A stretch of 64,000 bases of DNA from Aquila chrysaetos chrysaetos. Taxonomy: Eukaryota; Chordata; Aves; Accipitriformes; Accipitridae. Where the stretch lies: the NCBI RefSeq assembly GCF_900496995.4, contig NC_044009.1:35549505-35613504 (forward strand), given 5' to 3'. The notes beneath the pieces were generated by a model. That model saw only the letters and a program-made list of their open reading frames with translations. It did not search any database and was not told the origin of the DNA. Of this stretch, positions 13,694 to 61,850 are shown one piece after another. The first letter of the stretch is position 1, and every line of letters starts with the position of its first letter. Both the position numbers and the translations under genes were made by a program.

Positions 13694-13840
13694 TTATACC
13701 CTCACGGCGGGGCCAGAGCCCGTGGTGAGGGGCACGGTGGAGCTGCAGTCATAGTCCAGGTCCACCACGGCGTGGGAGCTGGTGATGAGGCTGTTCAGGG
13801 ACGGCCCCGTCTGCCGCTCTCGGAAACTCTGGATGTAGCT
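13694..13840 (-). CDS. TMEM198: TMEM198 coding exon 4 and stop
   Basis: 147 nt from [12 protein letters not shown] to GPAVRV, then TAA at 13694-13696. The C-terminal VRV could be a PDZ-type ligand (inference). Confidence 0.95.
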
Positions 13841-15585
13841 CTGCTCGAGAGAGGGGGGCGGACGGAAAGTGAGGGGGGCTCTGATCCTGGCCCACTCCAT
13901 CCCACCCCACCCCACCCTAAGCTCTGCAGCAGCCCCCCAGACCCAGGCCTGTGCAATCCCACCCACCCCAGCAATTGGGCCCTCCAGGGGCTGGCCGCAG
14001 CAGGGTGCACAGCCCCGTCCCTTCCCTGGGCACACGCTTCACACCTTGCCCGACACCTGTTTCTACTGCGGCCGCAGCGCTTTTGGCCACCAGTTTACAT
14101 TTGCTTGCAAAGGCCGACGTGCTCCGTGGTGGGCACATCCCAGCCCCTCCTGAGCTGCCCCATCCCCGGGATGCCCCGGCCTCGTCCGTCGAGGAGCTCG
14201 GATGCTGGCTGGCCCCCGGGCACCTCTCCCCTCTCTGCCCCAAGCCCACCTACATGGAGAAGGAAGGGCCGCGGAGGCCGGGGGAGATCTCTACCCTGGG
14301 TGCGGGACTCACGGGGGAGAGCACGTCCCCATCGAAGCGGCGCACAGGGTTGGGCTTGCGGCGGTAGGCGGGCTCGGGCGGGTGGGCTTTGTGCTGGTGG
14401 GGCGGCGGGTGGTGGGGTCTCCGCTTCTTCTTCTTCTCCTTTCGGTCCTCCCGCTGCTTGATGCGCATCAGCTGCACGCGGCGCTGCTGCCGGCTGATGA
14501 TCACTGCGGGGCAGATGGGCCTGTGAGCGCTGGGGAGCACACCCAAACCAGCCCCGGACACAAACCAGCCCCAGCTTTGTGCACCCAGGCCTCCCCTTGA
14601 GTGCTGTGCCCCCGTAGAGTCCCAAACCCCTTATTTGTGCATGCAAACCAGGTGCCGGGAACCTCCACCCCGGTCCCCGGGCCCCCCAAGCTCCTGCACC
14701 CACCCTGGGCCACGTCCATCTCCCCCAGCCCCCACACACCTTCTGTGTGGGAGTAGCCCTCGGCCGTGACCTTCCACTGGACCAGGACGCCCAGCACGGT
14801 GAGGAGTGGCCAGACGCCCAGGATGACCCAGCTGTACCAGCACACGGGGCGAGCAGGGGCCACCTTGATGCGCTCGTAGATGTACTGCACCAGGAGGAAG
14901 AGCTCGATGAAGTAGTCGACGGTGACGGTCATGATGGCGCTGCCGAAGACGGCGGTGGAGAGGGTGGTGAAGAAGCGCTGCCACTGCAGCGTGAGGACGG
15001 CGAAGAGCATCCCCACACCCAGGAGGAGTGCAATGGGGATCCACACCGTTGGTGGGTGGTAGAACTGCTCCATCACCACCAGCGTGGCCACCGCCAGCAG
15101 CAGCCCCAGGAGCAGCCCCACCATGAAGAGGCCGACGCTGCGCACCAGCATGGTGACCAGGCCGCACAGGACCCCGATGCCCAGCCCGATGCCCACCGAG
15201 GCCTCCACGCTCAGCTGCGTGTCCAGCACCCGCTCCTTGTAGCACAGCATGAAAATGATGATGGAGCCGAACATCAGCCCCGTCAGGAACATGACGGCCT
15301 TGAAGCAGCGGTAGCCTGTGGAGAGACCACTGCAGTCAGGGGGTGGATGGCCAGCATCCCCCCAGCTCCCCCCTGCCCTTCTCCCCACTTGCCCCGCCAG
15401 CCGCCGGGCTGGCCTGGCTCACCGAAGAAGCAGTAGATGATGCCGAAGAGGCAGCACATGGCACACACCACCGAGGGCACCACCTGGTAGCGACGCTCGA
15501 TTTCCTGCTGGCAGCTGTGCCCCCACTCCTGGCCCGGCTCGTGCGGCAGCAGCTTGAACCGCAGCGTCTGCACAGTTGCAGTCAT
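13694..15585 (-). CDS. TMEM198: Transmembrane protein 198, complete
   Basis: Four coding exons on the minus strand (15423-15585, 14740-15315, 14313-14503, 13694-13840) give 358 residues, close to the roughly 360 of the mammalian protein. It starts [14 protein letters not shown] and ends GPAVRV, as in mammals. The protein is a multi-pass (about seven-TM) membrane protein; mammalian TMEM198 is reported to associate with LRP6 and promote its phosphorylation in Wnt signalling. Exons 1-2 carry the hydrophobic segments. Exons 3-4 form a cytosolic tail rich in Arg/Lys ([16 protein letters not shown]) and His/Pro. All junctions are GT-AG and in frame. A CAG lies 4 nt before the ATG, so the first coding exon may be preceded by a non-coding exon near the CpG island at 17.3-18.5 kb. 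Confidence 0.97.
14313..14503 (-). CDS. TMEM198: TMEM198 coding exon 3
   Basis: 191 nt from [10 protein letters not shown] to FDGDVLSP, the basic cytosolic tail. It has a polylysine run and a His/Pro-rich stretch. Confidence 0.96.
14740..15315 (-). CDS. TMEM198: TMEM198 coding exon 2
   Basis: 576 nt from [10 protein letters not shown] to GYSHTE. It holds the remaining hydrophobic helices, including the Gly/Leu-rich [16 protein letters not shown]. Confidence 0.97.
15423..15585 (-). CDS. TMEM198: TMEM198 coding exon 1
   Basis: 163 nt from the ATG at 15585 to the donor GTGAGCC. It encodes the N-terminal tail and the start of TM1 ([15 protein letters not shown]). Confidence 0.96.
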
Positions 15586-16034
15586 GGCTCTGGGGACTCC
15601 CGGGAGAGGCCTCAAAATCTCCGCTCCTGCCCCATGGCTTGCCGGCAAAACTGCGCCCTGGCACCCGCCCCAGCTGGTGAGAGAAAGAGAAGGGAGATGG
15701 AGGCACCGCCAGCACGTGTCCGACGGCGATGCCCACCACTCGGCACCCAGCCGCCAGAAAACCTGCTCCAGCCCCTCTCTGTCTGGGTGGGAAGGAAGGG
15801 AACGAGGGAACAGCTTCATCTGCGGGGGCTGCGGGGGCGCAGACCATCACCCAACGGGTGACTGCAAGGATGTGCCATCCCCAGGGAGGCTGCCCGCACC
15901 CCCGGGGAGCTTCACTGCCGGGACGCGGTGCTTTATAATTTGTCTGTGGCTTCAATTTCCTGCCCCTGGCTCTCTGGCACCCTTTTCCTGCTCGATTAAA
16001 GGGAGACTTCCACTACCTGGTATTTTCTGCCTGT

Positions 16035-20329: not shown

Positions 20330-20950
20330 GGGGGACGGGGACAGGGACAGGGACGCAGCGGCTGTGCCCGGCCGGGCCCCTCCGCGCTCCCAGCCCCGGG
20401 AACAAAGGGCCGGCTGTGCCCCAGCCCCGCGGCACCCGCCCGGGGAAATCCGCCCCTTAAGCCGGCTCAGGCGCCGTGTCCCGGCCCCCGCCACGCCGCG
20501 GCCCGGGCAAATGTGCTTTCTGAGCCGGAGGGCGCTTTCAGAGCGGGCGGCCAGGGCCGGGGGCGCTGCCCCGCCGCCCCACAGCGCCGGGGGCGAACCC
20601 CGTGGCCCGGGGAACCACCGGGCAGCCCCGCTGCGACGCCTGCCCCTGCCCGGCCCCACGGCCCGGCCCCACGGGGAAGGGGCGGCGGCGGCGGCGGCGG
20701 GGGGGGGGGGGGCCGGTCTCCTAGCAACCTCGCCCCGCCCCCAAGCCGCCCCCTGCTCCCCCTCCGCTTCTCCCCGCCCCGCCCCGTGACGCGGCGGTGG
20801 GAGCGCGGCCCATTGGCCGGGGCGGGCCGCCCGCGGTGACGTGCGGCGGGGCGGGGCCAGGGGGTGACACGTCGGACGGCGGCGCCGCCAGCGGGAGCGG
20901 CAGCGGCAGCGGCAGCCGGAGCCGCCCCCGCCCCCGGTCCCGTCCCGGCC
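20330..20950 (+). promoter_or_regulatory. CHPF: CHPF CpG-island promoter and 5' UTR
   Basis: GC-box-rich DNA ends at the CHPF ATG. It has an inverted CCAAT (CATTGGCC) near 20811, TGACG half-CREs near 20838 and 20865, and a G-run at about 20700. There is no TATA box. Confidence 0.65.
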
Positions 20951-21261
20951 ATGCGGCTGTCGCTGGTGCTGTCGGTGCTGCGGCCCGCCGGGCCGGTGGC
21001 CATCGGCGTCTCGCTGGGCTTCACCCTCAGCCTGCTCAGCGTCACCTGGGTGGAGGAGCCCTGCGGGCCGCCGCCGCGCCCCGCCGCCCGCCCGCGCCCC
21101 GACGGCGGCCCCGCGCCGCCCCCCGGCCCCGGCAACACCAACGGCAACGCGGCGCGCAGGCCCAACGCCGTGCCCGCCGGGCTGGGCGCCGACAGCTGGG
21201 AGCCCCGCGTCGTGCCCTACCGCCCGCCCAGCCCCGGCAGGGCCGCCAAGAAGGCCGTCAG
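20951..21261 (+). CDS. CHPF: CHPF exon 1
   Basis: 311 nt from the ATG (MRLSLVLSVLRPAGP) through the TM anchor (SLGFTLSLLSVTW) to AAKKAV plus a split Arg. The stem is longer in Pro and Arg than I recall for human. Confidence 0.97.
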
Positions 21262-24200
21262 GTGCGGGGGGCCGGGGCGGGCTGGGGGAGCGGGGCCCCG
21301 GCGGAGGGCGGCCGGCCGGCCGGCGCTAACCGGGCTTTAGAGGGGAGTAGCTGCGGCCGAGCCCGGGGTGCCCGGGTGTGGGCGTGTGTCTGCCGGCCCG
21401 GTGCTGGGGGGCTGCCTGCCCGCCCCTGCCTGCCGGGCCGGTGCCGGGGGGGGCTTTACAGGTGACCCGGCGCTGTGCTTCCCCCCGCTCCCTGCAGCCA
21501 CCCGGGGCCGCAGCCGGACCTTTCTCACTGCAGGTGCCTTTCCCTGCTGCTTCCCTTCCTTGCCTCTGCCCCCCCCCCCGCTTCTTCTTACCCCCCTGCC
21601 CGCCGCAGGAGCGCCCGAAGAGCCTCCTGCCCGCCCTGCTGCCCGCTGTGCAGAGGTCGCCTGTTGCAGCAGGTGCTGCCAGGCTCCCTGCCCTGCCCTA
21701 GCAGGGACCCCTCCCGCGGTGGCCCGTCCCCACCCAGCGCCGCAAACTCCAGCCTGCTCCGGGGCTGGCTGCGGCCTGTCCTGGCGTCCCCGGGATGACG
21801 GGGAGCAGGCAGTGAAAGGGCCTCCTTGTCCCGGCGAGGCGGTGGGCGGATGGAGGGGGCTGAATGGGGCCAGTGTGCGCCAGGAGGCGGCTGGGGGCCG
21901 GGGGGTTGGGGGGGGGGGTTGTCGCTTCCTGCCGCTGCGCCGGGCTGGGAGAATGAAACCTGAAAGTCTTTGTGAGTGGGGCAGCTGGGGGCCATGGTGG
22001 GGAGGGGGACGCAGCCAGCCCAGCGGGGCCTGGCTTCCCCGGGGAGGGCAGCGTGAGCTCGCCTGCCTGCCTGCCTGCCTGCTTGAGAGCGGCGCGTCTG
22101 GCAGGGGCGGCGGGAAGGTGCTTCCCAGCTCGGCTGTCCTGGCTGGGGCTGGCAGCGTGGTGGGGTGCCTGGTGGGTCGTGTCCCCACTAGAGCTGGGTG
22201 TGCAGCCCTGTTTCCCTCTTTTAGCTGTGCTCAGCCTTTTGCGAGCCTCTGGTTTGAGCCAGGCTGGCTGGCTCATGGGAGCGGAGGGTCTCAGGTTGGG
22301 GGGGACCTCAGCAGAGCGCTCTGCTGTGCCTCTGGCCCAAGCATAGCAGCAGCCAGTGCCGCCGGGGTGTCTTGCATGTGTGGTTGAAGCCTGGGAGCAG
22401 TTCCTGCAGAGGAACCGAAGTCGGCACTGTTGGGGAGGACAGGGAGGGTGCGGGTGGGGTGCAGTGCCCTGGGGCCAGATGTTCTCTTCCTCCTGCAGGA
22501 CCCGGTACATCAGCACAGAACTGGGGATGCGGCAGCGGCTCTTCGTGGGTGTGCTGACCTCCAAGAGCACGCTGAACACGCTGGGGGTGGCTGTCAACCG
22601 CACGCTGGCCCACCGCCTGGAGCGCCTGGTGTACTTCACAGGCACGCGGGGCCGCAAGGTGCCCCACGGCATGACGGTGGTGACGCACAGTGATGAGCGG
22701 CCCATCTGGAACATGTACCAGACCATCAGGTACCTTCTGGACCACTATGTGAACGACTTCGACTGGTTCTTCCTGGTGCAGGATGATACCTACACGGAGG
22801 CGCACCGCATCAACCGCCTGGTCGCCCACCTGAGCATCGACACCCACCTCTACCTGGGCCGTCCCGAGGAGTTCATTGGCGGGGACACTGAGGGACGCTA
22901 CTGCTACGGGGGGTTTGGCTACCTGCTGTCCCGCAGCCTCCTCCTGCTCCTGCAGCAGCACCTGGAGAGCTGCCGCAATGACATCCTCAGCGCCCGGCCT
23001 GACGAGTGGCTGGGCCGCTGCATCATCGACTACACAGCTGTCAACTGTGCCGAGGAGCACGAGGTAGGTTCTGCAGCGGAAATGGCCTCCGAGAGCCTGA
23101 TCCTGGCCTGGTGTGTTTGCCCGCCTCCCTGTGGGCTCCCAGGTCCTGGGGGGACCAGCCCTTGCGCCCTGTCGTCCTTTGAGCTTGCTGTGCTGGCAGC
23201 TGCTGGGGTGGGAGCACGGGTCGGGGCTGGCCGTGACCCATCTCTCCTGCCTGGCGCAGGGCTTGCGTTACCACTATTTTGAGCTGGGGAAGAATGCGGA
23301 CCCCGAGCGGGAGACCGACCTCCGTTTCCAGAGCGCCTTTACTGTCCACCCCGTGCTGGATCCCCTCCAGATGTACCGGCTGCACAAGTACTTCGCACAG
23401 GTGGAGCTCGAGAGGACCTACCAGGAGATCCAGCAGCTCCAGGTGAGATCTGGCTTGGCGGGGAGGGTCTGGGCTACTCTGGCCTCCCTGTGGGCTTTCT
23501 GGTTGCTCTGTGTCACCTCTCCACCTTAGTATGAGGGTTTCTTACCTGAACCTGCTGTGGGGATGGGATTAGCTGAGCCCGTGTGGCTGCAGGGGCAGCA
23601 GTGTTGGCTGGAGAGCAGCTTTGGACCTGGACAGGTCCTGCAGCTGCTGTGGTGGTTCAAGGTGATGGAGCCAGCAGGGTGCTGAGGTCCGCCAGCAAAG
23701 GCCAGGCAGGGTGGGAGAGGACGCGGGTCCTGCTGATGGAGGTGGTGTGCCACATTCGGGGTGCTGTTTTTAGAAAACCTGAGGTGCTGGACAGGAGTCA
23801 GGCTGAAGGCAGAGTTGTTCTGGCACTGCTCTTTGGGCCAGGAGTGGCTGATCTCTGAGTATCAGGAGTCAGCTTGCCTGCAGCCAGAGCTGGAAGACCT
23901 ACTTTCGCTCGCCTTGGCTCTCACTCCTCCATCTCTCCTCTTGCAGCTGGAGATCCAGAACGCCAGCAGCCTGTCTGCTGATGGGGACCACGGTGCCACG
24001 TGGCCTGTTGGCATCCCGCCCCCCTTCCAGCCCAAAACCCGCTTCGAGGTGCTGCGTTGGGACTACTTCACGGAGGAGCAGGTCTACGCCTGTGTGGATG
24101 GCTCCCCCAAGTGCGAGCTGCGTGGCGTGGATCTGGCGGACGTGGCCGACGTGGTGGCCATGGCCATGGAGGAGCTGAACCGCAAGTACCAGCCGGTGCT

Positions 24201-25209
24201 CCATGTCCGCAAGCAGCAGCTGGTGAACGGGTACCGGCGCTTCGACCCCACGCGTGGCATGGAGTACACGCTGGACCTCCAGGTGGAGGTGGTCACCCAG
24301 AAGGGGCACAGCCGCTCTGTCACCAAGCGCGTGCACCTGGTGCGGCCCCTCAGCGAGGTGGAGATCATCCCCATGCCCTATGTGACGGAGGCCAGCCGCA
24401 TCAATGTCATACTGCCGCTGACGGCCCACGACCGGGATCACGCTGCCCGCTTTTTGGAGGCTTATGCGGCGGCTGCCTTTGAGAGCAGCGAGAACGCGGT
24501 GCTCACCTTCCTCTTCATCTATGACCCTTTCGAGGCTCAGCAGGTCACCCAGAATGACATCTTTGCCCCTGTGAAGGCCCAGATCACCGAGTATGAGCGC
24601 AAGTATGCAGAGGTGAAGATCCCGTGGATCAGTGTTAAGACAGACGCACCCTCCCAAATCAAGGTCATGGACATCATCTCCAAGAAGCATCCTGTGGACA
24701 CGCTTTTCTTTGTGGCCGGCGTGGGGACAGAGGTCACCGTCGACTTCTTGAATCGGTGCCGAATGAACACCATCAACAACTGGCAGGTCTTCTTCCCCAT
24801 CCACTTCCAGGGCTACAACCCCGCCATTGCTTACCACAACCAGGTGCCGCCTGCCACGCTGGACCTGCTGCGGGATGCGGGGCGCTTCGACCGTGACGTC
24901 TTCCACGAAGCCTGCTTCTACAACGCTGACTACATGGCAGCACGCACCCGCATGGCGGGTGATGTGCAGGAGAATGAGGACATCCTGGAGACCCTGGACA
25001 TCTACGACATGTTCATCAAGTACTCCAACCTCCACGTCTTCCGGGCTGTGGAGCCTGCCCTGCTGCAGCGCTACCGACACCAGGCCTGCAACCCCCGGCT
25101 CAGCGAGGAGATCTACCACCGCTGCGTGCAGAGCAGCCTGGAGGGCGTAGGCTCTCGCTCCCAGCTGGCCATGGTGCTTTTCGAGCAGGAGCAGGGGAAC
25201 AGTACCTGA
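20951..25209 (+). CDS. CHPF: Chondroitin polymerizing factor, complete
   Basis: Four exons (20951-21261, 22499-23063, 23260-23442, 23947-25209) give 773 residues, close to the 775 of human CHPF. CHPF is a type II Golgi membrane protein that partners chondroitin synthases to extend the GlcA-GalNAc chain. A short cytosolic tip is followed by a TM anchor at about residues 12-34 and a Pro/Gly-rich stem. A beta-3-glycosyltransferase-like domain includes FDWFFLVQDDTYTEAH, with an Asp-Asp at residues 199-200. A beta-4-GalNAc-transferase-like domain follows, from about residue 355 (FEVLRWDYFTEE). The C-terminus is EQEQGNST, as in mammals. All junctions are GT-AG and in frame. Confidence 0.98.
21262..22498 (+). 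other. CHPF intron 1
   Basis: 1.24 kb, GC-rich, with a short CTGC repeat at about 22062-22082. No other feature is recognised. Confidence 0.6.
22499..23063 (+). CDS. CHPF: CHPF exon 2
   Basis: 565 nt from RTRYISTELGMRQRL to AEEHE. It holds the first glycosyltransferase-like fold with QDDTYTEAH and YLGRPEEFIGG. Confidence 0.97.
23260..23442 (+). CDS. CHPF: CHPF exon 3
   Basis: 183 nt, phase 0 at both ends, from GLRYHYFELGKN to YQEIQQLQ. Confidence 0.97.
23947..25209 (+). CDS. CHPF: CHPF exon 4 and stop
   Basis: 1,263 nt from LEIQNASSL to EQEQGNST and TGA. It holds the whole second glycosyltransferase-like domain (NGYRRFDPTRGMEY, FLNRCRMNTINNW, EACFYNADYMA). Confidence 0.98.
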   Translation: MEIQNASSLSADGDHGATWPVGIPPPFQPKTRFEVLRWDYFTEEQVYACVDGSPKCELRGVDLADVADVVAMAMEELNRKYQPVLHVRKQQLVNGYRRFDPTRGMEYTLDLQVEVVTQKGHSRSVTKRVHLVRPLSEVEIIPMPYVTEASRINVILPLTAHDRDHAARFLEAYAAAAFESSENAVLTFLFIYDPFEAQQVTQNDIFAPVKAQITEYERKYAEVKIPWISVKTDAPSQIKVMDIISKKHPVDTLFFVAGVGTEVTVDFLNRCRMNTINNWQVFFPIHFQGYNPAIAYHNQVPPATLDLLRDAGRFDRDVFHEACFYNADYMAARTRMAGDVQENEDILETLDIYDMFIKYSNLHVFRAVEPALLQRYRHQACNPRLSEEIYHRCVQSSLEGVGSRSQLAMVLFEQEQGNST

Positions 25210-30702: not shown

Positions 30703-30943
30703 CTACACCCAGCCCTTGCCCTCCCCGGCCAGCACCACCACGACCTTTGGGTTTTGTATCAGGACCCGGTCCTTCCTCAGCATGTCCTCCAGCACCTCCA
30801 GCGCTGGGCGCTGGACTCGCTGCATGATCCTGCTCTCCTCCTCGCTCAGCTCCTCCAACATGTCTTCACTGCGGAGCAGGAGGCAGCACGAGTTCCCAGT
30901 CACGGCCTTGGTGTAGATGAAGGTGGCTTTGTGGCAGGGCATC
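30703..30943 (-). CDS. Putative 3'-terminal exon of an unidentified protein
   Basis: The minus strand has a good acceptor (CTGCCCCTCCAG) just before G-ATG, then 80 codons with a protein-like, non-repetitive composition. It opens MPCHKATFIYTKAVTGN, contains an acidic LEELSEEESRIMQRV stretch (possibly helical), and ends VVVVLAGEGKGWV with TAG at 30703-30705. AATAAA follows about 95 bp later. I do not recognise the family and found no convincing upstream exons. In frame after the TAG, coding-like sequence continues (LTEMLLRCLISQIRQ) to TGA near 30577, so the TAG could be a disabling change in a longer ORF or the true end. It could therefore be a real terminal exon, a recent pseudogene, or chance. 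Confidence 0.4.
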
Positions 30944-32250
30944 CTGGAGGGGCAGATGGGTCAGGGCCGATGGCGGGGACAGCCTTGTCCCAAAGGACCC
31001 CAAAAGGACCTGATCCTCTTACTGGCTGATGAAAAGATGTGGAGGATGTAGCTATTTCCCTGCTTTTCCCTTTAGGACCTGACCCCAGTGCTCCCCTCGC
31101 AGGGCATGGTGTGAGCTGTGGGATGGGATCCTGTGTCCCAGCTGCACGCAGCTAACCTGGGCATCTTCAGCCCTCACTGGTTTAGAGGGAAACCTGCGGT
31201 GCCCGGTGCTGGCAGCCTCCACCGTGAGGCCAACGCCTGTCTCCCACTTTGTCCCTTCTCTGTGCTGCAGGGTGGCCGGTGCAGATGGAGAAGGGTCTGG
31301 AGAAATCAGGAGCACCTCTGGCAGGGAAAGCCCCAGGGCCCTGCCCCAGCAGGGCCCCCCTTTGCCCCCACCCATCCTCCACCTGCCCCATTTTGGTTTC
31401 ACCCTGTACCCCTTGCCCATGGCACCCGGGGGGGGGGGGGGGGCAGGTCCTGCTGGAGGTCCCACCGTGGGACAGCTGATGGTACCCCTGCGATCTCGCT
31501 TGCGCCGTGTCCCCCTGCCAGGGGGACAGGGCTCATGGCCCACAGTGGGTGCTGGAGGAGCAGGCAGCTGCTGGCACCATGCTGGTAATCCTGTGCGAGG
31601 CCAGTGCCAGTATAAGCACCGGGCTTTAACTGGGCTGTGCGTGGTGCTGGTAACAGGCATGGGAGCAGAGGGGCCGTGGGTATGGCAGGGGGGCGTCCCA
31701 CAGGCAAGCGGGTCCTGCACGGGGTCCTGGGTGTTGGCAGGGGTGCGGGGTGCTGCTCCAGCATGGGGCATCTGTGGAGCACCCCCAAAGCACCCCCAGC
31801 CCATGTTTCTGCCCTCCCATCTGCCCCCCACCCTGCAGCAGCCCCCAGGGGGGCAGGAGCCTGTCCTTCCCACCTCAACACCTACTGGGGACCGATAGAG
31901 CCTGGTGGGCCACTGGTGGGTGCCTGCCCTCACCTGGGGAAAGATTCGAGGACTGGGGTATGGCTCTGGCAGTTCCCACTGCTGGTGCCCAGCTGGCAAC
32001 CACCGTACCTCTGCCACATGCTGGGGCTGAAAGAGCTGGGCAGCAGGCAAGGCTTTCTGCGGGCAGCGATGCAGAGATGCTCGCCTTTGGGCGAGCTAGC
32101 ATGCTGGCTCTTGCAGTGCCCAGCATGTGGGTGCAGGGCTGTGAAGTGCTCCCTGGGTCCCACCACCACCTCCCCCCGGGGTGGGACCAGCTTGCCCACC
32201 TCTCTGCACCCCCCCAGCCCTGCCTCCTGCCCCCAGCCCTCACAGGCAGC
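30944..32250. other. Intergenic, no gene recognised
   Basis: GC-rich DNA with a G16 run at 31428-31443. A weak exon-like stretch lies on the minus strand at about 31155-31270, but its phase does not fit the exon at 30943. Confidence 0.4.
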
Positions 32251-34343: not shown

Positions 34344-34463
34344 CTAGCAGGCGAAGTCCTCGAAGACGCCCTGGTGAGGGTAGTGGTGGCGGTGGTGGTG
34401 GTTGGGCAGGATGCCCGCGTTGTAGGTGCCCTCCACGTGCCGGCCCAGCGTTTCACAGGGGCT
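34344..34463 (-). CDS. ASIC4: ASIC4 exon 10 and stop
   Basis: 120 nt, [12 protein letters not shown] to GVFEDFAC, then TAG at 34344-34346. It includes the His-rich [14 protein letters not shown], an ASIC4-type tail. Confidence 0.96.
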   Translation of the reverse strand, partial: SPCETLGRHVEGTYNAGILPNHHHRHHYPHQGVFEDFAC

Positions 34464-37400
34464 CTGTGGGGATGGCAGTCAGGGGGGTGGGTGCAGGCCC
34501 CACGCACCCTGTCCCCCCCGCCCCCATCCCCAGGAGCCCCCCCGGGGGCACCCAGCTCCCTGCCACCCAGCCTGAGGGCACCAAATGCAGAGCTGTGCTG
34601 TCCCTTGCTCTTGGGACGATGCCCCTTCCCCCAGGGGCAGGGGCGGACGCTGCCCAAGCCCTGTCCTCGCAGCCCCCTGGGCTGCCCACCCCCACGGGGG
34701 TACCTGGTCCTTGAGCTCCTCCAGTCCCAGCGTGGCGATGCTGCCCGAGGGCTTCTTCAGGGGTGGCTTGGAGCGGCGCAGGACCCGGCTCACCCTGTCC
34801 CGGATCACCTGGGTGCAGATGGGGGGTCAGCCCCGGACCCACACACAGGCAGCACTCCGTGTGTGGGCACCCCAGTCTGCACGGACCTGCTGCCCGCTCC
34901 CCTGCCTGCCGGCGGGGGACAGGGCTGACAGTGGGGACAGCACCTCTGCCCACCACCCTCGGGTCACCAAGGGATGCTGGGGGCACCTGTCCTCCCCCCA
35001 CTGCGTCCCGCTGGGTGTTCTCCGATTTGGGGGCTGTAATAGCCCTCTGGAGTGGCCATGCATGGCACTCCCTCCCCGGGGAGCCTGACTCCCCACTCTG
35101 CACCTCGCCTGCTCCCACAGCCGAGACACAGCCCTGAAGGCTCAGCGCACCTCGTAGACATAGTCCAGGATCTCCAGGATGGTGAGGATGCTGGCACCGA
35201 TAAACAGGCCCATCTGGCCCCCGATGTCCCCTGGGGAAGAAGAGGGGGAGATGGTCACCGGGAGATGCTGTGCAGCCCGCTGGGAGCCTTGGGTGGGCCA
35301 GCAGGACTGCAGGCAGTGCCAGGGCTGCCAGACAGAGGGGGACAGCGTGGTCACAGGGGCAGGGGTGGCAGGATGGAGGGAGCAGGGGACATGCGGGACA
35401 GGGGACGGCCAGCAGCATGCCACCCTTCAGCCAGCGTGTGGCCGGCTCTTGCCCTGTGTGGTCCCTCCCTGGGCAGCCCCATGTCCTCCTGGGGCTGGGA
35501 CCCAGAGCTCTGCGCCTCAGGATCCCATGGGAAGGTGGGGGGAGTCACCGAGAAGCCCAGCAATGTCGTAGGCTTTCTTCTGCTCAATGGCCTCGTAGTT
35601 GAGCGCCTCGAAGAAGATATCCAGCACTAGGAAGTTCTCCCTGTGGGGACACCATAGTGCTCAGCAAGGAGGGCTGGTCACGGACCCTTCCACCCCCACT
35701 GCCCCCCAAACCTCCCGTGTCCCCCAGCCCTCCAGCTCCCAAGTGCTCCCAGGGCCCTTGTGAGATATTCAGGCTGGTGCGGTGGGGACACAGAAGGGGC
35801 ATGTCCCAGGCCAGGAGGGACTGTGGGGTGGGGAGATGCCAACAGGAGAGCTGGGAGGACACGGATGGGTCAGGGAGGTGCTCTAGTGGCAGCCACCCCT
35901 AAGCAGAGGATGCTGCAGGGACCGTCCGTGCCAGGACCTGCTCCTGCCACGCTGCCAGGAGTGGGGTGGGGGTTCCCCAGGTCCCCAGCCCCCTGCTCAC
36001 CCCCCCGGCACACCCCAACACCAGCAACTCACCGGATGTAGGTCTCGTTCTTGTTGTACTTGCGGGCGAGGTAGCGTGCCGAGCCCTTGTTGGGGATGCG
36101 CACCATGGAGATCTCCTTGCCGTAGCGCGTCAGGTTGCATGGCGTGGGGCAGCTGCAGCGCTCCTGGCTGTCCTCCACCGCCGTGTCTGGGGGCACGCAC
36201 CCGTCCCGTCAGCGTGGCTGTACTCCCCCCCGGCCCCCTCCCCGGGGGCACCCGGCTGGCCCCCAGCCTCCTGCCCGCCACCGCACCTACCCAGCGTGTG
36301 GTCAGCACACTCAATGTACACGTTGGGGGAGCAGATGGACTCGTTGCCTGCGGAGAAGCATCTGGTCAGGGGGGGTGGGAGTCTGGCCCGCTTCTCCCCC
36401 CCCCCCCCCCTTGACTCACTCCCCTAAAGGCAATGGGGCAGGGGTGGCCCCTGGGTGCGGAGGGGATGGGGACGGGTGGCCCTCGGCTGCAGGCTGGCTG
36501 GGGCAGGGGTGGCCCCTGGGTACAAGGCGGACAGGGGAGAGGCTGGCCTGGGGTGTAAGGAGCGTAGGACAGGGACTGACCCAGCATGCGGAGAGGATGG
36601 GGAGGTCCCTGGGTGGAGCGGGATGGGGCAGGGGGGCCCCTTGGGCGCAGAGGGATGGGGTGGGGGTGGTCCTTGGGTGCAGGCTGGAGGGGGCCAGGGC
36701 ACCCCCGTGCAGGACCATCGGGGCAGCGGGGTGCCCCCATGCCATCACACGCACCCCTCACCTGGCATGTGGACCATGCGGCAGTGGCAGCTCCGCACCA
36801 CGGCCTCCTTCTCGCACTGCAGGCGGCAGGCAGCAATGCTGTAGGTGTCGTAGCCGGGCAGCATCTGCTCCCCCTGCACGCTGGCCCGGCAGTTCCCCCA
36901 CGGCTGCGGCAGGTAGGTGAGCTGCCAGGGCGAGAGGGGCATCGCTGCAGGGCCGTGCCGGGCTGGGTGCCCGCGGGCACCTCCCCAGGGGCTGTGGGGC
37001 ATCCTGCCTTACCCGCTGCTCCTGGCAGGACACAAAGGTCTGGAAGCCGGGCGAGACACCAAAGCCCAGCTGATGGATGTAGGGCGGCTCATCCTGGCTG
37101 TGGATCTGGACCCGGATGCCAGCTTCAAATGACGTCTCGTCTGCGCGAGAAGGACACGGGGGCTGCACGCCTGCCCATGGGGACAGCCCTCAGCCTTGCC
37201 CCGGTACCCAACCAGGACCTGCACCCTGGAGCCCAGCACCCCTCCAGTGCCCCGCTTACGCCATAGCCCACGCCAGGGTGCCCTGTTTGCCCAGCAACCC
37301 TCCCTCCCAGCACCCCTCGCCCGTAGCACGGCCCCACTCACTGGTCTCTCTCCAGATGGGCAGGTACTCTTCCTGCTGGATGTCCAGCATGATCTCCAGC

Positions 37401-38348
37401 CCGTTGCCCATGCCACCCTGGCGGGTCACCCGCGGGTTCCTCCGGTCCCCATTGAAGGTGTAGCACTTACCGTAGCGTGTGTAGACCTGGGGATGGAGAA
37501 AGCGGGGCGGTGAGGGAGCAGGCAGGGATCTGGCAGGGCATTCTGCAAGCAGGATGAGGTCCAGGGACCCCTCTCCAATCCCATGGAGGCACTGGGGGCG
37601 GAAACAGTCTCACATGGCCCTTGGAAGGGCTCATCTAAGCCTCCCACACACACACTGCCACCCCTCCACCCTTGCTGGGGGGGTGTGAGGCATCGCTCCC
37701 AGCACTCATAGGGCAGCCCAGCTGTCCGGCCCCTGCCAGGTGGGGTCTCACGGGGTCAAAGTGCTGGGGGCCACAGCGCTCTCCCTGAAAGCGGCACTCC
37801 ACCAGCATGTCCTCGATCTGGTGGCCCAGGCGGTGGAAGAAGCTCTGCATGGTGCGCTCAGAGCGGCGGGGCGGCAAGAAGCGCGAATAGTTGGCAAGAC
37901 GCGTCAGCCACGCGCGCCGGTCCTCCCCCAGCACGGCCAGCATCTCGGGCACCAGCGAGCGGTTCTCCTGGGCCAGCCCCAGCCACTGCCCCACCGAGTA
38001 GAGGTCGGGCCTGGTGAGGTGCAGGAAGCGTGCCCGGTTGGGGTTGCAGAGGGTGACGGCCGGGAAGCGGAGCTGGGAGGCCCAGGCGAGGCGTGCACGG
38101 GTGTGCACGGGGTGCGAGAGCAGGTGGTGCAGGCGGTCAGTGGCGCCGGTGGCCAGCAGCCCGGCGGAGGCCAGGAAGGCCAGGCTCCAGAGCAGGCGGC
38201 GCAGGCGGGACTGCGGCCGGGTGCACATGTAGTGCAGCCCGGGGATCCTGGTGGCCCGCAGGATGCCAACGGTGAGCTGGGCAGCGCCGCCGTCCCGAGC
38301 CACCGCCAGGGCTTCCCTGTCCTGGCAGCAGGCAAGGGGCAGCGGCAT
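34344..38348 (-). CDS. ASIC4: ASIC4 predicted short-gene isoform using exon 1b
   Basis: Joining 37752-38348 to the nine shared exons gives an uninterrupted 545-residue DEG/ENaC subunit with two TM segments, encoded within about 4 kb. It is predicted from splice phase and motif content only. Confidence 0.7.
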
Positions 38349-41300
38349 GGCTGCAGGCAGGGTGGCTCCTCTGGGAAGTGGGGTGCAGGCTGCCCCCGAG
38401 GCTGCCCGGGGTCCCCGGTCCCTTCCAGGGAGCTCTTCCTCCTGGGAGGCTTTTGCTCTGCGCCTTCCTGAAGGCGAACGTGGCAGGCGCCTTCCCGAGC
38501 TGCTCCGGTGACGGGCAAGGGGAGGGAGAGGAGGGGGCTGCTGCAAACACACGCCTTCCCCTAACCTCCATTCGGGAATGGAAAATTCCTCCCTGAGCCA
38601 GGCTGGGACGGGGCGGGGGGGTGTGTTGCGTTACCCCAGGCAGGGTGAACCGGCAGCCCCCAGTGCCCCAGCATGGTGGGCACCAGTGTCCAGAGGGTGA
38701 TGTCCTGTCCCAGCCACCCTGTGTGAGCCCCATGCCCAGGGATGCTGGACCCCAGCTCATCCCCTGCCCTGGCACTGCAGTCTCCGCTGGGTCCCTGCCT
38801 GGACCCGCTGGCTCCCCAACCACGGCTGCTCTGGGGCTGGGGGCCCTGCCCCACAGAGGCAGGACAGTGCCAGGCCTGGGGGGCAATTGCCTCCTGCCAG
38901 CGCTGCTCGGGACCATATGTGTACCTTGGTCCCCAATGCCACATCCTGGTATCCCCCACCCTGGAGCTGGGGACCCCAGTGGATCTGGACCCCGTGAGGT
39001 GGGAGAAGCAGGGCTGTGGGGCAGGAGGAATGGAGCCGTGGGGCAGGAGGCTGCGTGGGAGCCCACCTGAGCCCGGCGGGTGCTTTGAAGTGACGGGCGA
39101 GGCTGTGATCAGAGCGTGGCGGTGGCGGGGGGGGTGTCTCTGCACCAGCCTGTCAGCGCGGCTGGCGGGGCCCCGACAGCCTGTCAGGGTGCCTTCAAAG
39201 CTCGGCAACACGCTCCCCGGCAGCCTCTCATCTCCCGCTGCCGCCGCTCCCAGGCACCCGCCGTCGTCGGCACCAGCCCCGCCGAGGCGCGGGCTGGCCC
39301 CGGGGGTCCTGCAGCCCCAGGACGAGCCAGGGCCACCGTGCCCCCGGTGAAGGGCAGCATCCCTGCTGCTCCACGGCAGCTGGGGCAGGAGGAGGGCAGC
39401 GGTGAAAGGGGGGACCAGAAAGAGGGGAGCTGCCGCTCGCCTCGGCCGTGACTCCTAGCACCGTCCATGCTGCCGGCCCTGCCGCCTGGGCAAGGCATGA
39501 CTCCGTAGCCATCCCGGGGGCCCGGCCGGGATCCAAGCTGGCAGCTTGGCGACAGGCGCAGGAGGACGCCGGTCAGGTCAGGAACGGGGGTCTTGGCCTC
39601 AGGGAACGGGACGGGCGCCGAGGGAGGTGAGCGGAGGCAGCGGGCGGCATCTCCGGTGCCCAGGGGCGGCAGGGCGCTTCCCTCCCGCCCCACCTCCATC
39701 GCACTCCCTGCCCCGCAGCGGGGCGAAGCCCAGCCCAAAGGTCGCCCGCGGTGCCAGCTCTGGCCCTTACCGGCCCCGGCCGGGGCCAGCCCCCGGCTCC
39801 CGGCAGCCGCAGGCCGGGCGGCCCGCAGGGGCCGGGCTCCGGCAGGGGGCAGCAGGGCCCCGCGTTTGGGCGGCGGAGGGTGCGCGGCGCCAGCCCCGCC
39901 GGGCCCCCCCCGCCCTCCCCAGCGGCATCCGTTCGCCCGGCCCGGCCCGGCCCGGCCCGGCCCGGTCAGCCCTACGGCAGAACAGGGCCGGGCAGGATTG
40001 GGGCCCCCCCCAGCTCCGCGCCCTGGCTCCTATCCCCCCGGGGCGGGGGCTGGGGGGGCGGCGGGGGGGGGGGGGGGGGCAGCGTCCCAGCCCCGCCGAC
40101 GGCAGCGTTGGCCAGGCGGCCGTGGGGAGCAGCCGGCCCCACGGCACGGTGTGCCCCGGGGATGGACGGTCCCCATCCCACCCGCCACGGGATGCCAGCG
40201 CTGCTGCTTGCTTTGCTGGAGGAGCGAACGCTCTGGCGGGGCCGCAGCGCTTCCCCGGGACAGAGCCCAGCTCCCTGGGGACACAAAGCCAAGGCTGCGG
40301 GGCAGCCCTCGCCGCCCACGTGGCCCCACGCCCCAGAGCCGTCACCGGTGCTGGCACCATCCCCGCCACGGCACAATGCCGGCGTGAGCGGGCAGGAGCA
40401 CCGCCGCGGGCTCCCTGCTCTCTGCACCCTCGGGACCAGCGCAGTGGGTCACCCCACCCCACGCTGAGCTGTCCCCTTCCGGCCTGGGTGTCCCTGCACC
40501 GTCCCCGGGACACGGCTCAGCCCCCCCGCTCCGTGCCGGCGCGTCTGCGTGGGGCTGCTCGAGCTGGCTCGGCTCCTTGCTGAGATTTATTGTGGCTCCA
40601 AGAGCCGGAGGCTGCCAGCCTGATACTATCAGCCCCTCGCACACCAGGGCAGCTTTTATATTAGTTTTCTTTAAACGGAGGATGAGCTTCCCAGGCTGGA
40701 GGAAATGTCATTTCTCTGAACGCTTCCATCTCGTGTCGCTTCAGACATCTCCGGGCAGCATCGCAATCTCCCTGGAGCGGGGCGAGGGATGGGGATGGGA
40801 TGTAGAGGCTGGGGCATGTGGGGACAGGCAGCTTGGGGACAAGGACCAATGTTGGGCATGGCTGGAGGAGAAGGTCCGGCGGTGGCCTTGTCCCCCGTCC
40901 CCTGCTGCCCCAGGCAGGCAGGCATGGCTGCAGGGACACGTGGGGTGGGCAGGGGTGCCCGTGGCGCCCAGCTGAGTTACTCACTTGTCGGCTGCCCGGG
41001 TGCCGAGGCCAGCTGTGAAATCGCGCTGGCGAGAGAACAGCACAGTCCTGAAGGGCTTTGCCTTTCCAGCATGACAAACCCAATTAGGTAACAGGAGCGC
41101 GTGAGTAGGAGGAGGAGGAGGAAGGACAGAGGAGAGCCTGCCTGCACCAGGAAAATTATTTCCTCCCTGCAGCTGACCCAGAAAAGCACCTTGCAGGGCT
41201 GGAACACATGTCTCCAGCTGGGGACGGCGCCTGGGGCACAGGGCCCCGGGCACCCTGCTCCGCTCGCTGGGCACCCATGGGTGCCGTAGCCTTGGGGCTG

Positions 41301-59300: not shown

Positions 59301-61850
59301 CTGCTGCCTGGCAAGGCTTTGGGACATGGTATGTGACAGAGAGAGGTCACATCTTCCCCCATCCCTCCCCACACCCACATCCTGCAGCCTTTCCTGCCCC
59401 AGGTTCACCCCTTTGCTCCATGCAAGTGAGAGGTGACAGGGATGCCCCTTTCTGCTGACAGCCCCTGATGCCTCAAAGGCCAGGCTGGAGGGCTGAGCTG
59501 TGGACGGGGCGGGGGCAGGCTGCAGGAGTCTTGGGCTCCCCTTCTTTGGGCCGTGAGCCGGGGGTCAGCTGGCACTAACCATCCTCACGCCTGAAGACTG
59601 CTCCAGTGCAGGGTGCCGGCACACCGGAGCCCAGCTGCCTGAGCATCCCCAGGGCAGACCCGTAAGCAGCTGAGGCAGGCAGGTCAGCTAGTCCTGCACG
59701 GCCACCCGCTGAGAAACCGGGTCCCGGTGACTGTCCTGGCAGTCACCCTCTGCTGCCACGCAGCACGGCGCACACCACACACCATGTCCACGCTGCGGGA
59801 AGCTTGTACCCAGCTCCATTCGCCTGAGCTCTACCCTGCCAGCCTCGCAGCGCAGCTCAGCACACGTCAAATCCCATTGCCATGCCGTGCCACTGCCCGG
59901 CACAAGGCTGGGCTCGCTGCCTCCCCCACAAGCCAAAGCTGTGCAGGCTCCCCCAGGAGGACCCCGGGGCTGGACCCAGCGTGGCTGAGCCACGTGCAGG
60001 ACTGTCCAGCACCAAAGCTCCCTGCTCCCAGCCCTGCTGAACCGCACTTCTCCCCGGCAAACTCAGGCAGCTGGCGTAAAGCAGGCACAAAGCCCAGCAA
60101 AACCCCAGGAGGAGTGGGGTTGCCCCCCCACTGCCCCCTGCTCCTTCCCACTCCGTTGCAGTGCCCCATGCTAGCCCCCCGCCCAGGGCAGCCCCCCCTC
60201 CGAAACGATGCTTTCCCAGGGACAGCATCACCCTGCGCGGCGAGCAGGCATTGTATCGATGGGCACAAAGTGAAACAGGACATGCTGCATCAGCCATTTC
60301 TAGCCCCACGGAGCCTTCTCTACTCCCCCCCCAGCATCCCGCACAGCCCATGGCATCGCATCCCCCTCCCCAGCGCAGAGCAGGCTCCGGCTGGCAGCAC
60401 TGCTCCTGGGAGCGCATCAAGCCAGCCGAGCAGTAGCCCCTGGCAGCCGTAGGAGAGAGGCGGCTCATTTCCAGAGTCATTACGGTCTGAAAAGGGTCCC
60501 ATCAGGTATTCCGCCCGTTCAGCACATTTATTTTCCCAAACCACAGCGAGGATTTGTGATTCCAGGCTCAATATTAGTAAGAGCTGCACGCTGGAGGCAC
60601 CCGGCCGGGAGCTCGCTGCCTGGGCAGGCAGGGAGCTGCTGGCGAGGAGGCCCTGACGGCAAGCCCCGGGCAGCGAGCGGGCAGCCCCCGGCAGCCCCCC
60701 GCTCGCCCAGCTGTGGCCGTGCCTCCAGAGTGGAGCCGCTCGGCATGTGTGCGTGCACACATGTGCGTGTGCAATGCTGGCAGCCTCCGGATTCACACAC
60801 ATCCCAGCGCCAACCCCCCCAAACGCAGGAAGGCTCCCCTGCGTGCAGAGGGGTCTCTGCCCGTTCCTCCGGCCACTCTTGCTGTGCAAAGCACCCTGTG
60901 ACAGAGCACTTCAACCCAGGGGGAAGCCCAGGCTGGAGCAGGGCTCTACACCACGGCTTTCCCCCTGCCCACTGCACACCCACCCTGGGGACCGCCGAAC
61001 CCCGCTCCCCCCCAGCTCTGGCTCCTGCCTGCGAGCCTCTCCGGCACGGACCTGCTGGCAGCCCGGTTCTGCGGTGCAGAGCCCTACCAAGAGCTCCCAT
61101 GCAGGATCCTCTCTCTCTCTCCGTGTGAAACTTGGAGGGAAACTCAAACAGAGAGAGATGCAAACTTCAGCAGCCGGAGCGAGCCAGGAGCCCTGCTCTG
61201 GCAAGGCACGGCCAGGTGGGTGCCCCCCATGCCAGCTGGGGCCCCCAGGGAAGCTGAGCCAGGCGTGCACTCACCACAGTGAAATCGCGGGATGAGCAGT
61301 TCTCGCCGCTGAAGTTGCAGCTCTTGAGCATGTCGTCAAGCTGGTGGCCGGTGCGGTTGACGATGTCAGCCATGTCGGGGTCGGGGTAGAGGAGGTCTGT
61401 GGCCTTGTGGCCGTCCCGGTCCTTGGGGGGCAGCCCGGTCATGTTGGCCAAGTGGAAGATGTCAGCGTCGGTGAGCGCCGAATGGCGGTAGCGGTTGATG
61501 TTGCAGATGGTGATGGCGGGGAAGACCATCTCGCGGATGGCCTCCTCGTCCAGGGCCATGACGTGGGGGTGCTCCAGGTAGAGCAGCGCCGACTTGGCCG
61601 CCTGGTAGAGGAAGAAGGCGAGCGAGGCCAGGAAGGCGAACGCCCAGAGGGTCTGGCGAACGCCCAGCCGCCCCGACCGGCAGATGTGTCCCAGGCCGTG
61701 CAGCGTGCTGGCGCTGGCGAAGGCGGCCAGGTCCCGGGAGCGGGGCCGGGCGGGCTCCTCGATCAGGCTCTCCTTATCCCCTTCTTCTTTCTCCTTCTGC
61801 TTCTCATCCTCCTCGGCAAATTTGATTTTACACACGATCTCAATCGGCAT
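34344..61850 (-). CDS. ASIC4: Acid-sensing ion channel subunit 4, canonical form, complete
   Basis: ASIC4 belongs to the DEG/ENaC family; mammalian ASIC4 forms no proton-gated current alone and modulates other ASICs. Ten coding exons on the minus strand (61275-61850, 37342-37486, 37013-37140, 36762-36921, 36291-36347, 36033-36186, 35549-35640, 35151-35230, 34704-34808, 34344-34463) give 538 residues (human 539). Exon 1 carries [15 protein letters not shown], the His-Gly motif (STLHGLGHI), TM1 and the post-TM1 [10 protein letters not shown]. Later exons encode the Cys-rich extracellular domain, TM2 with the GAS filter ([15 protein letters not shown]) and a tail ending GVFEDFAC. Sequons include NMT, NRT and NFS. 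Intron 1 is 23.8 kb. [17 protein letters not shown] and [16 protein letters not shown] identify ASIC4 rather than ASIC1-3. Confidence 0.96.
34704..34808 (-). CDS. ASIC4: ASIC4 exon 9
   Basis: 105 nt, [16 protein letters not shown] to GLEELKDQ, the basic cytosolic segment after TM2. Confidence 0.95.
35151..35230 (-). CDS. ASIC4: ASIC4 exon 8 (TM2 and filter)
   Basis: 80 nt, [16 protein letters not shown] to LDYVYE. It holds the Gly-Ala-Ser selectivity-filter motif of ASICs. Confidence 0.97.
35549..35640 (-). CDS. ASIC4: ASIC4 exon 7
   Basis: 92 nt, [18 protein letters not shown] to AYDIAGLLG, leading into TM2. Confidence 0.96.
36033..36186 (-). CDS. ASIC4: ASIC4 exon 6
   Basis: 154 nt, [13 protein letters not shown] to KYNKNETYI, with [20 protein letters not shown]. 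Confidence 0.96.
36291..36347 (-). CDS. ASIC4: ASIC4 exon 5
   Basis: 57 nt, [18 protein letters not shown], with one sequon (NES). Confidence 0.95.
36762..36921 (-). CDS. ASIC4: ASIC4 exon 4
   Basis: 160 nt, [13 protein letters not shown] to [10 protein letters not shown], part of the Cys-rich thumb and palm. Confidence 0.96.
37013..37140 (-). CDS. ASIC4: ASIC4 exon 3
   Basis: 128 nt, [16 protein letters not shown] to FVSCQEQR, including [16 protein letters not shown]. Confidence 0.96.
37342..37486 (-). CDS. ASIC4: ASIC4 exon 2
   Basis: 145 nt, [12 protein letters not shown] to [10 protein letters not shown], accepting from either first exon in phase 0. The conserved YGKCYTFN marks the start of the shared extracellular part. 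Confidence 0.96.
37752..38348 (-). CDS. ASIC4: ASIC4 alternative first exon (exon 1b)
   Basis: 597 nt, 199 codons, from [12 protein letters not shown] to CGPQHFDP, ending in phase 0 at GTGAGAC only 265 bp before exon 2 ([12 protein letters not shown]). It has TM1 ([17 protein letters not shown]), [21 protein letters not shown] and [18 protein letters not shown], all typical of ASIC first exons and closer to ASIC1a/2a/3 than to the canonical ASIC4 exon. Sequons are NRS and NYS. The ATG has G at -3. Spliced to the shared exons it would give 545 residues. The N-terminal His-Gly motif reads Pro-Gly (RIPGLHYMC). A leftover of a lost tandem ASIC gene is the alternative, but no second exon set is present. 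Confidence 0.85.
39600..40520 (-). promoter_or_regulatory. CpG-rich block upstream of ASIC4 exon 1b
   Basis: A dense CpG/GC-box region about 1.3-2.2 kb upstream of exon 1b on the minus strand, including (CCCGG)6 and a G17 run. It is the best candidate for a second ASIC4 promoter; no TATA box is seen. Confidence 0.45.
39936..39965 (+). repeat. (CCCGG)6 pentamer repeat
   Basis: Six perfect CCCGG units in the CpG-rich block. Confidence 0.9.
43935..44105 (-). mobile_element. Old CR1-type LINE fragment
   Basis: The segment from 'tctcatttccaacctaaat' through 'agcattgtcccttagc' to 'atgtatttataaacagcaat' matches the layout of the reverse complement of CR1 3' regions (TTCCAACCTAAA, TTGTCC, then a CAATC-type tract before CCTC). 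It is heavily diverged and without coding potential. Confidence 0.6.
47755..47985. promoter_or_regulatory. Candidate enhancer island in ASIC4 intron
   Basis: An AT-richer island in GC-rich DNA. It contains two TCF/LEF-like words in tandem (CTTTGATCTTTGAT, 47806-47819), a perfect POU octamer ATTTGCAT (47825-47832), a RUNX word TGTGGTTA (47875-47882) and TAAT-core homeodomain words. Function is inferred only. Confidence 0.35.
48132..48173 (+). repeat. 16-bp tandem repeat, 2.6 copies
   Basis: GTATCCCCATATCCCT repeated perfectly, with a partial third copy. Confidence 0.9.
48361..48408 (+). repeat. (GGGAT)n microsatellite
   Basis: About 9.6 perfect GGGAT units. A degenerate relative lies at 50063-50195. 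Confidence 0.95.
50063..50195 (+). repeat. Degenerate GGGATGGA/GGAATGGA repeat
   Basis: Irregular GGGAT, GAGAT and GGAAT units over about 130 bp, an older version of the 48361 repeat. Confidence 0.8.
50675..50745. promoter_or_regulatory. AT-rich island with POU octamer
   Basis: ATAATTAATACTTGC is followed by a perfect ATTTGCAT (50716-50723) within GC-rich intron DNA. A cluster of TAATT/ATTAG words lies 300 bp upstream (50345-50395). Confidence 0.3.
53575..53890. promoter_or_regulatory. Candidate enhancer with SOX-dimer and MEF2-like words
   Basis: A 300-bp AT-rich island. ACAATTATTGT (53617-53627) is an inverted pair of SOX half-sites, and CTATAAATAA (53773-53782) fits a MEF2 or TATA-like word. 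There is no ORF or repeat homology. Confidence 0.35.
55320..55465. promoter_or_regulatory. AT-rich homeodomain-word island
   Basis: About 145 bp with repeated TTAAAT, TTCATTAAAT and AATTATGA words, flanked by more than 70 percent GC DNA by eye. No repeat family is recognised. Confidence 0.3.
56505..56615. promoter_or_regulatory. AT-rich island
   Basis: About 110 bp with ATAAATTAGCATTTC, TGGATTAAGC and GCATTAAAG words in GC-rich intron DNA. Confidence 0.3.
58480..58620. promoter_or_regulatory. AT-rich island with T13 run
   Basis: A T13 run is followed by TTCTTAATTTGC, TGTGACGTTAAAT and TTATTTATCGTG words. No coding potential is seen. Confidence 0.25.
61275..61850 (-). CDS. ASIC4: ASIC4 exon 1 (canonical first exon)
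   Basis: 576 nt, 192 codons, from [11 protein letters not shown] to SSRDFTV, ending in phase 0 at GTGAGTG. It contains the charged N-tail, LHG motif, TM1 ([15 protein letters not shown]) and three sequons. The ATG context is weak (C at -3), but no upstream in-frame ATG exists. Confidence 0.96.

Follow-up and report, generated by a model that had tools for sequence, protein, structure and literature searches.

An avian ASIC4 gene with three alternative first exons, one of them a candidate counterpart of the ASIC2b exon

The closest described systems are the a/b isoform pairs of ASIC1 and ASIC2. In excerpts of PMC6790391 and PMC5405051, 1a/1b and 2a/2b are named as separate ASIC splice pairs and ASIC4 has one form. 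Excerpts of PMC4967927 describe ASIC2a and ASIC2b as differing in just the part encoded by the first exon, and propose H72, D77, E78, H109 and H180 of ASIC2a, which are absent in ASIC2b, as proton sites. The same excerpts report that ASIC2b is held in the ER unless assembled with ASIC2a. Its proton insensitivity has been tied to the loss of H72/D77/E78 (excerpts of PMC4967927 and PMC10507113), and the histidine numbered H73 in ASIC1 is described as near-universal in acid-gated ASICs and missing in ASIC2b, with zASIC1.1 as the exception (excerpt of PMC10507113). None of the matches listed in a search of the open-licence literature (titles, abstract starts and passages) concerned an alternative first exon of ASIC4; gene models may include such exons.

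Here we analyze a window of 64,000 nucleotides, the whole stretch of Aquila chrysaetos chrysaetos DNA under study, in which ASIC4 lies on the minus strand. With a probability of roughly 0.8, we read this locus as one ASIC4 gene with three alternative first exons (4A, 4B1 and 4B2), of which 4B2 would correspond to the ASIC2b exon, descend from a first exon older than the ASIC1–4 split and encode a modulatory subunit. A preliminary description had proposed an alternative first exon that shares exons 2–10 with the canonical one. The sequence supports this sharing well, and the first exons number three rather than two.

The alternative exon 4B2 occupies 37752..38348 (-). Re-reading the minus strand bore out the open exon of 199 codons described there: its ATG lies at 38348 in the context CTGCAGCCATGC, the frame is stop-free to 37752, and the protein ends in ...QHFDP at a phase-0 GTGAGA donor. 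The canonical first exon, 4B1, spans 61275..61850 (-) and encodes 192 codons (MPIEIVCK...RDFTV) up to a phase-0 GTGAGT donor. As had been suggested, 4B2 stops where the canonical exon stops, at a homologous position and in the same phase 0, and both join exon 2, which starts at 37486, in frame.

Frames of 100 or more amino acids from stop to stop number 432 in this GC-rich window, so the openness of 4B2 is by itself weak evidence. Homology and codon structure count for more. Taken alone, 4B2 matches the Pfam ASC family (PF00858) with E 2.2e-19, scoring 70.3 bits where 23.6 would suffice. A PDB search with it matched 24 sequences, of which 13 are ASIC1 or ASIC2 (E 4e-26 to 1.1e-24) and two are ASIC5 (E about 1e-7); the other nine are designed armadillo-repeat proteins (E 3e-7 to 4.5e-4), with no single stretch passing alone, and we take these as compositional. 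In a DNA-level search of the genome, the single further match to 4B2 was the ASIC2b exon (65%, E 2.8e-6). Cysteine is present in 4B2 at all three of the aligned sites examined in the first ectodomain segment. Codon structure is evident as well. GC content at codon positions 1/2/3 is 71/51/91%. Compared with a shuffled pairing, 4B2 and the ASIC2b-type exon 2B2 have a scaled excess of identity of 0.48, 0.50 and 0.20 at positions 1, 2 and 3; the pair 4A and 2A gives similar values (0.44, 0.54 and 0.18), and 4B1 and 1B1 give 0.45, 0.58 and 0.33. This excess identity shows protein-level constraint on 4B2. We reject the idea that 4B2 is a chance open frame in GC-rich DNA, as its homology and codon structure are strong evidence.

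The third first exon, 4A, lies outside the window at C6:35647005-35647658 (-) (L037:8006-8659), 36 kb 5' of the canonical exon and about 34 kb past the window end. It encodes 218 codons, is ASIC1a/2a-like, keeps both the HG motif and the histidine at the H72 site, and reaches ASIC4 exon 2 in frame from a phase-0 ACA|GTGAGT donor. On the same contig, 4A thus stands at 35647658-35647005, 4B1 at 35611354-35610779 and 4B2 at 35587852-35587256, with exon 2 starting from 35586990. When the stop-free frames of the interval between 4A and 4B1 were ranked by periodicity, which is not a full gene search, none scored above 0.41 apart from these two exons and their antisense shadows; the exons 4A and 4B1 themselves score 0.64 and 0.74. 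Upstream of 4A, on the opposite strand, lie frames that by eye are RACGAP1-like, with a coiled coil and a C1-type CxxC stretch (L038:6717-9848 (+)).

All three first exons end in phase 0 and lead in frame to one exon 2, the common acceptor, at 37342..37486 (-). It is preceded by a pyrimidine-rich CAG acceptor (...CCATCCCCAG) and ends in ...IWRET. The cores of the following exons, located by tblastn, lie on the same strand at 37013..37141 (-) (exon 3), 36760..36921 (-) (exon 4), 36289..36345 (-) (exon 5), 36032..36172 (-) (exon 6), 35544..35639 (-) (exon 7) and 35151..35228 (-) (exon 8, with TM2). Exon 9, at 34704..34808 (-), and exon 10, at 34344..34463 (-) with the stop and the ending ...GVFEDFAC, were placed by eye. 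Were 4B2 part of a separate overlapping gene, that gene should bring downstream exons of its own. When the whole genome (1.23 Gb in 144 contigs) was scanned with Pfam ASC, at least 43 matches came up; those on C6 near the window are the three first exons plus a single match to each of ASIC4 exons 2, 3, 4, 6 and 8. Peptides of exons 2–8 match the window once each (E <= 0.01) and find no match at that threshold in the five flanking 10-kb loci (L034–L038). These single matches, the in-frame join and the reading of exons 9–10 by eye agree with the earlier statement that only one set of exons 2–10 follows. Nothing that we saw favors the separate-gene reading; we reject it, leaving it a very slim chance.

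Coding-like frames also flank ASIC4 within the window at 1-12000 (+), 13700-15850 (-) and 20800-25200 (+). By eye they resemble OBSL1 (with Ig repeats), TMEM198 and CHPF, presumably the order to be expected beside ASIC4. Between the CHPF-like frames and the 3' end of ASIC4 lies a strongly coding-like frame, DMLEELSEEESRIMQRVQRPALEVLEDMLRKDRVLIQNPKVVV..., at 30706-30960 (-).

To which classes do these exons belong? Nine ASIC1–4 first exons from this one genome were compared, namely 1A, 2A, 3A and 4A; 1B1, 3B1 and 4B1; and 2B2 and 4B2. All nine sequences are short, and 2B2 is partly N. The first exon of ASIC1a is identical to PDB 6ave, a chain named ASIC1 that we take to be chicken, at 120/122 positions counted on the alignment; ASIC1a apart, the gene names given to the ASIC loci rest on likeness to mammalian sequences. 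Identity between 4B2 and 2B2 reaches 46% (65/141), whereas with the other seven 4B2 shows 31–36%, including 4B1 (46/143, 32%) and 1B1 (45/147, 31%). The canonical exon 4B1 is 48% identical to 1B1 (70/145). Exon 4A comes closest to class A, with identities of 42–46% to its members and 34–40% to the others.

The first tree had 14 rows, including ASIC5 and ENaC-type rows, and three further data sets used the nine rows, left out the broken exon 3B1, or kept only columns with 2B2 letters. Support for 4B2 with 2B2 is 98/97 in the 14-row tree and 100/99 in the three further data sets. Uniting the three ASIC4 first exons in one clade is rejected in all four (p-AU 3.0e-7, 5.6e-5, 1.1e-6 and 3.2e-4), as are the pairings of 4B1 with 4B2 (p-AU 4e-4 to 4e-3) and of 4A with 4B2 (p 3e-7 to 7e-4). 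The pairing of 4B1 with 1B1 has support of 73/81 to 89/89, and a B1 clade with 3B1 has bootstrap values of 54–61 in each of the three sets that contain 3B1. A class A that includes 4A is found in the best tree of two of the four data sets, with bootstrap values of 45–49; in the other two it is not rejected (p-AU 0.34 and 0.46). On these identities and trees, 4B2 can firmly be assigned to the ASIC2b (B2) class, 4B1 can with moderate confidence be grouped with ASIC1b in the B1 class, and 4A probably belongs to class A. The likening of this locus to an ASIC1a/1b pair does not survive: 4A exists as a third first exon, 4B2 pairs with the ASIC2b exon, and it is the canonical exon that is of ASIC1b type.

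These results bear on two other origins for 4B2. It shares gene and strand with 4B1 and ends at the homologous position, as would be expected of a recent duplicate of canonical exon 1 that arose as a lineage-specific novelty. But the two exons are only 32% identical, the trees that join them are rejected in every data set and 4B2 groups with 2B2 instead; duplication of the canonical exon within the gene is rejected by the tree, and we give it next to no weight. An exon copied from ASIC2 into ASIC4, rather than inherited from an ASIC ancestor, would be equally expected to pair with 2B2. However, the identity of 46% would make any such transfer ancient, 4B2 adjoins exon 2 just as its counterpart does in ASIC2, and common ancestry covers the parallel cross-gene pairings without extra events. 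We leave exon transfer a small chance.

The favored reading, inheritance of 4B2 from a first exon that would predate the ASIC1–4 split, agrees with the arrangement of first exons across the family. The order A, B1, B2, exon 2 is consistent in all four ASIC genes, three of which hold only two classes: ASIC1 has A, B1 and exon 2; ASIC2 has A, B2 and exon 2; ASIC3 has A, B1 and exon 2; and ASIC4 has 4A, 4B1, 4B2 and exon 2. A search of the window and 13 fetched loci with a profile for each class brought up the nine known first exons and no others at >=5 bits; in the two ASIC1 stretches and the ASIC3 loci examined, these profiles revealed neither a B2 exon nor a remnant of one. The ASIC2 intron of ~400 kb between A and B2 was covered by the whole-genome ASC scan alone, whose counts are lower bounds, and may hold a decayed B1 exon. 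The simplest reading of these sequences is that a three-way array of first exons is older than the ASIC1–4 split and was kept whole only in ASIC4. A fuller version, which we regard as evenly poised, supposes that the single ASIC of the vertebrate ancestor had an A/B1/B2 switch. ASIC1 would have kept A and B1, ASIC2 A and B2, ASIC3 A and B1, and ASIC4 alone all three. By this switch the one ASIC4 gene would toggle between subunits that are acid-gated (A, B1) and subunits that are silent and modulatory (B2); in mammals, part of the switch may have been lost or have gone unnoticed.

The ASIC3-like gene of this genome lies on C3 near 78.92-78.93 Mb (L039:5941-6495 (+), L040:321-926 (+)) and has an intact A-type first exon. 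At 2.8 kb downstream of this exon is a first exon, 3B1, which we call mammal-type after human ASIC3 and which carries one in-frame TAG, at codon 118. The broken mammal-type exon beside the intact A-type exon directly shows a first-exon exchange in this ASIC3.

First exons do die in the ASIC family, as the TAG in ASIC3 attests, and 4B2 might likewise be a fossil or dying exon of 2b-type ancestry, untranscribed in this lineage, that has not yet gained a stop. Two of its features speak for this. Its donor, CCC|GTGAGA, scores 3.6 bits on the donor matrix used, the lowest of the nine first exons; the same matrix gives 4.2 for the broken ASIC3 exon and 6.5–9.05 for the remaining seven. Among the GTs from 38350 to 37500 this donor ranks third, below one at 37994 inside the exon (4.4) and one at 37613, 138 bases 3' of it (7.2). 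Second, the histidine of the HG motif before TM1 is replaced by proline in 4B2, with the glycine kept, and the other eight of the nine first exons have HG, a conserved motif that does not by itself define ASICs or the DEG-ENaC family. Two positions before the H72 site, the residue is histidine rather than aromatic in both 4B2 and 4B1. The weak donor and the proline at HG would suit early decay as well as an exon that is tissue-specific and used at a low level.

Against decay, 4B2 has no stop or frameshift in its 199 codons, its codon structure is retained with constraint at positions 1/2, and its donor GT is present though weak. We simulated the decay of an unconstrained frame of the 4B2 type at assumed rates of 1.2e-9 and 2e-9 per site and year, with indels at 8% of substitutions and CpG sites evolving faster. 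The frame broke at a median of 11 My and 6.5 My, respectively. Of the simulated frames, 20% and 7% were still intact at 25 My, and 4% and 0.5% at 50 My. Thus, at these assumed rates neutral survival argues against a fossil. So do the end-branch lengths: that of 4B2 (0.71–0.79) resembles that of 4B1 (0.58–0.66) and not that of the broken ASIC3 exon, which at 1.14–1.55 is the longest of the nine; 4A has 0.83–0.87. We consider a fossil exon unlikely, though with a real if minor chance, and prefer the reading of 4B2 as a functional first exon.

What would such an exon contribute? The part encoded by the first exon runs from the N-tail through TM1 and takes in roughly the first third of the ectodomain. 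At the H72/D77/E78 sites (ASIC2a numbering), 4B2 has V/R/L and 2B2 has S/R/T; 4A has H/E/E and 4B1 has H/D/E. Since 4B2 lacks H72/D77/E78, it is predicted to be a silent, modulatory, 2b-like subunit, whose homomers would not be proton-gated and which would modulate heterotrimers as ASIC2b does. The prediction differs for the other two forms. The H109 site holds W in 4A and H in 4B1, and the H180 site holds G in 4A, S in 4B1 and P in 1A. Exon 2, shared by all ASIC4 forms, by eye encodes Q preceded by R where ASIC1 has MK, so that K211 is missing. K211 is reported to be important, and mouse ASIC4 to lack it (excerpt of PMC10507113). Proton responses are reported for chicken, frog and coelacanth ASIC4 and not for rat ASIC4 (excerpt of PMC6790391, citing Lynagh et al.). 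Weighing these sites and responses, the 4A and 4B1 forms are predicted to be acid-gated despite the lost sites, less certainly for 4A. The missing K211 and H109/H180 sites weigh against the acid-gated 4A and 4B1 that the ancestral switch supposes.

Each ASIC4 first exon would presumably have its own promoter, and the choice of start site would then decide which N-tail, TM1 and initial third of the ectodomain a subunit receives. Within ASIC4 intron 1, 0.8–2.4 kb 5' of 4B2, a GC- and CpG-rich stretch at 39100..40700 could serve the short transcript as a promoter. In 200-base steps, its GC content is 0.56–0.85 and its CpG observed/expected ratio 0.5–0.78; in 500-base steps, the ratio in the window has a median of 0.48 and a 90th percentile of 0.76 and rises to 1.14 in the 4B1 region. 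At the ATG of 4B2 the ratio is 0.41–0.72, compared with 0.79–1.14 at 4B1, and 4B2 has no matching peak. A bacterial promoter scan, a method unsuited to this genome, found no promoter.

If the three classes are common to ASIC1–4, then the a/b isoforms would be remnants of one old device. Birds would have a greater diversity of ASIC subunits than is usually listed, and choice of start site could let ASIC4 yield both acid-gated and silent subunits. The finding also matters where a gene has been declared lost on the basis of a single first exon. Toothed-whale ASIC4 was called a pseudogene from first-exon stops, although its dN/dS of 0.200 is not fully relaxed (excerpt of PMC9774174). It is a matter of speculation that a second first exon, keeping exons 2–10 under selection, explains this value.

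It is useful to set this locus beside the systems that it most resembles. With canonical vertebrate ASIC4 it shares exons 2–10 and the ending FEDFAC, a match to mammalian ASIC4 that we assume. It differs from that gene in its number of first exons, as excerpts of PMC6790391 and PMC5405051 give ASIC4 as a single form. With ASIC1 it shares the principle of switching first exons, and canonical ASIC4 exon 1 is ASIC1b-like (48%); 4B2, however, is not 1b-like (31%), and the first coding part of ASIC1a in this genome is split into two exons. The finger motif SKG-xxx-Y, described for ASIC2b (excerpt of PMC10507113) and not taken here to define its class, is present in 2B2, whereas 4B2 has TRP-xxx-S and a proline in place of the HG histidine. 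In other respects 4B2 follows the ASIC2 a/b pattern, with B2 class membership, a phase-0 join, a place beside exon 2 and the loss of H72/D77/E78. Unlike ASIC2, ASIC4 has in addition retained an exon of B1 type, which lies between A and B2.
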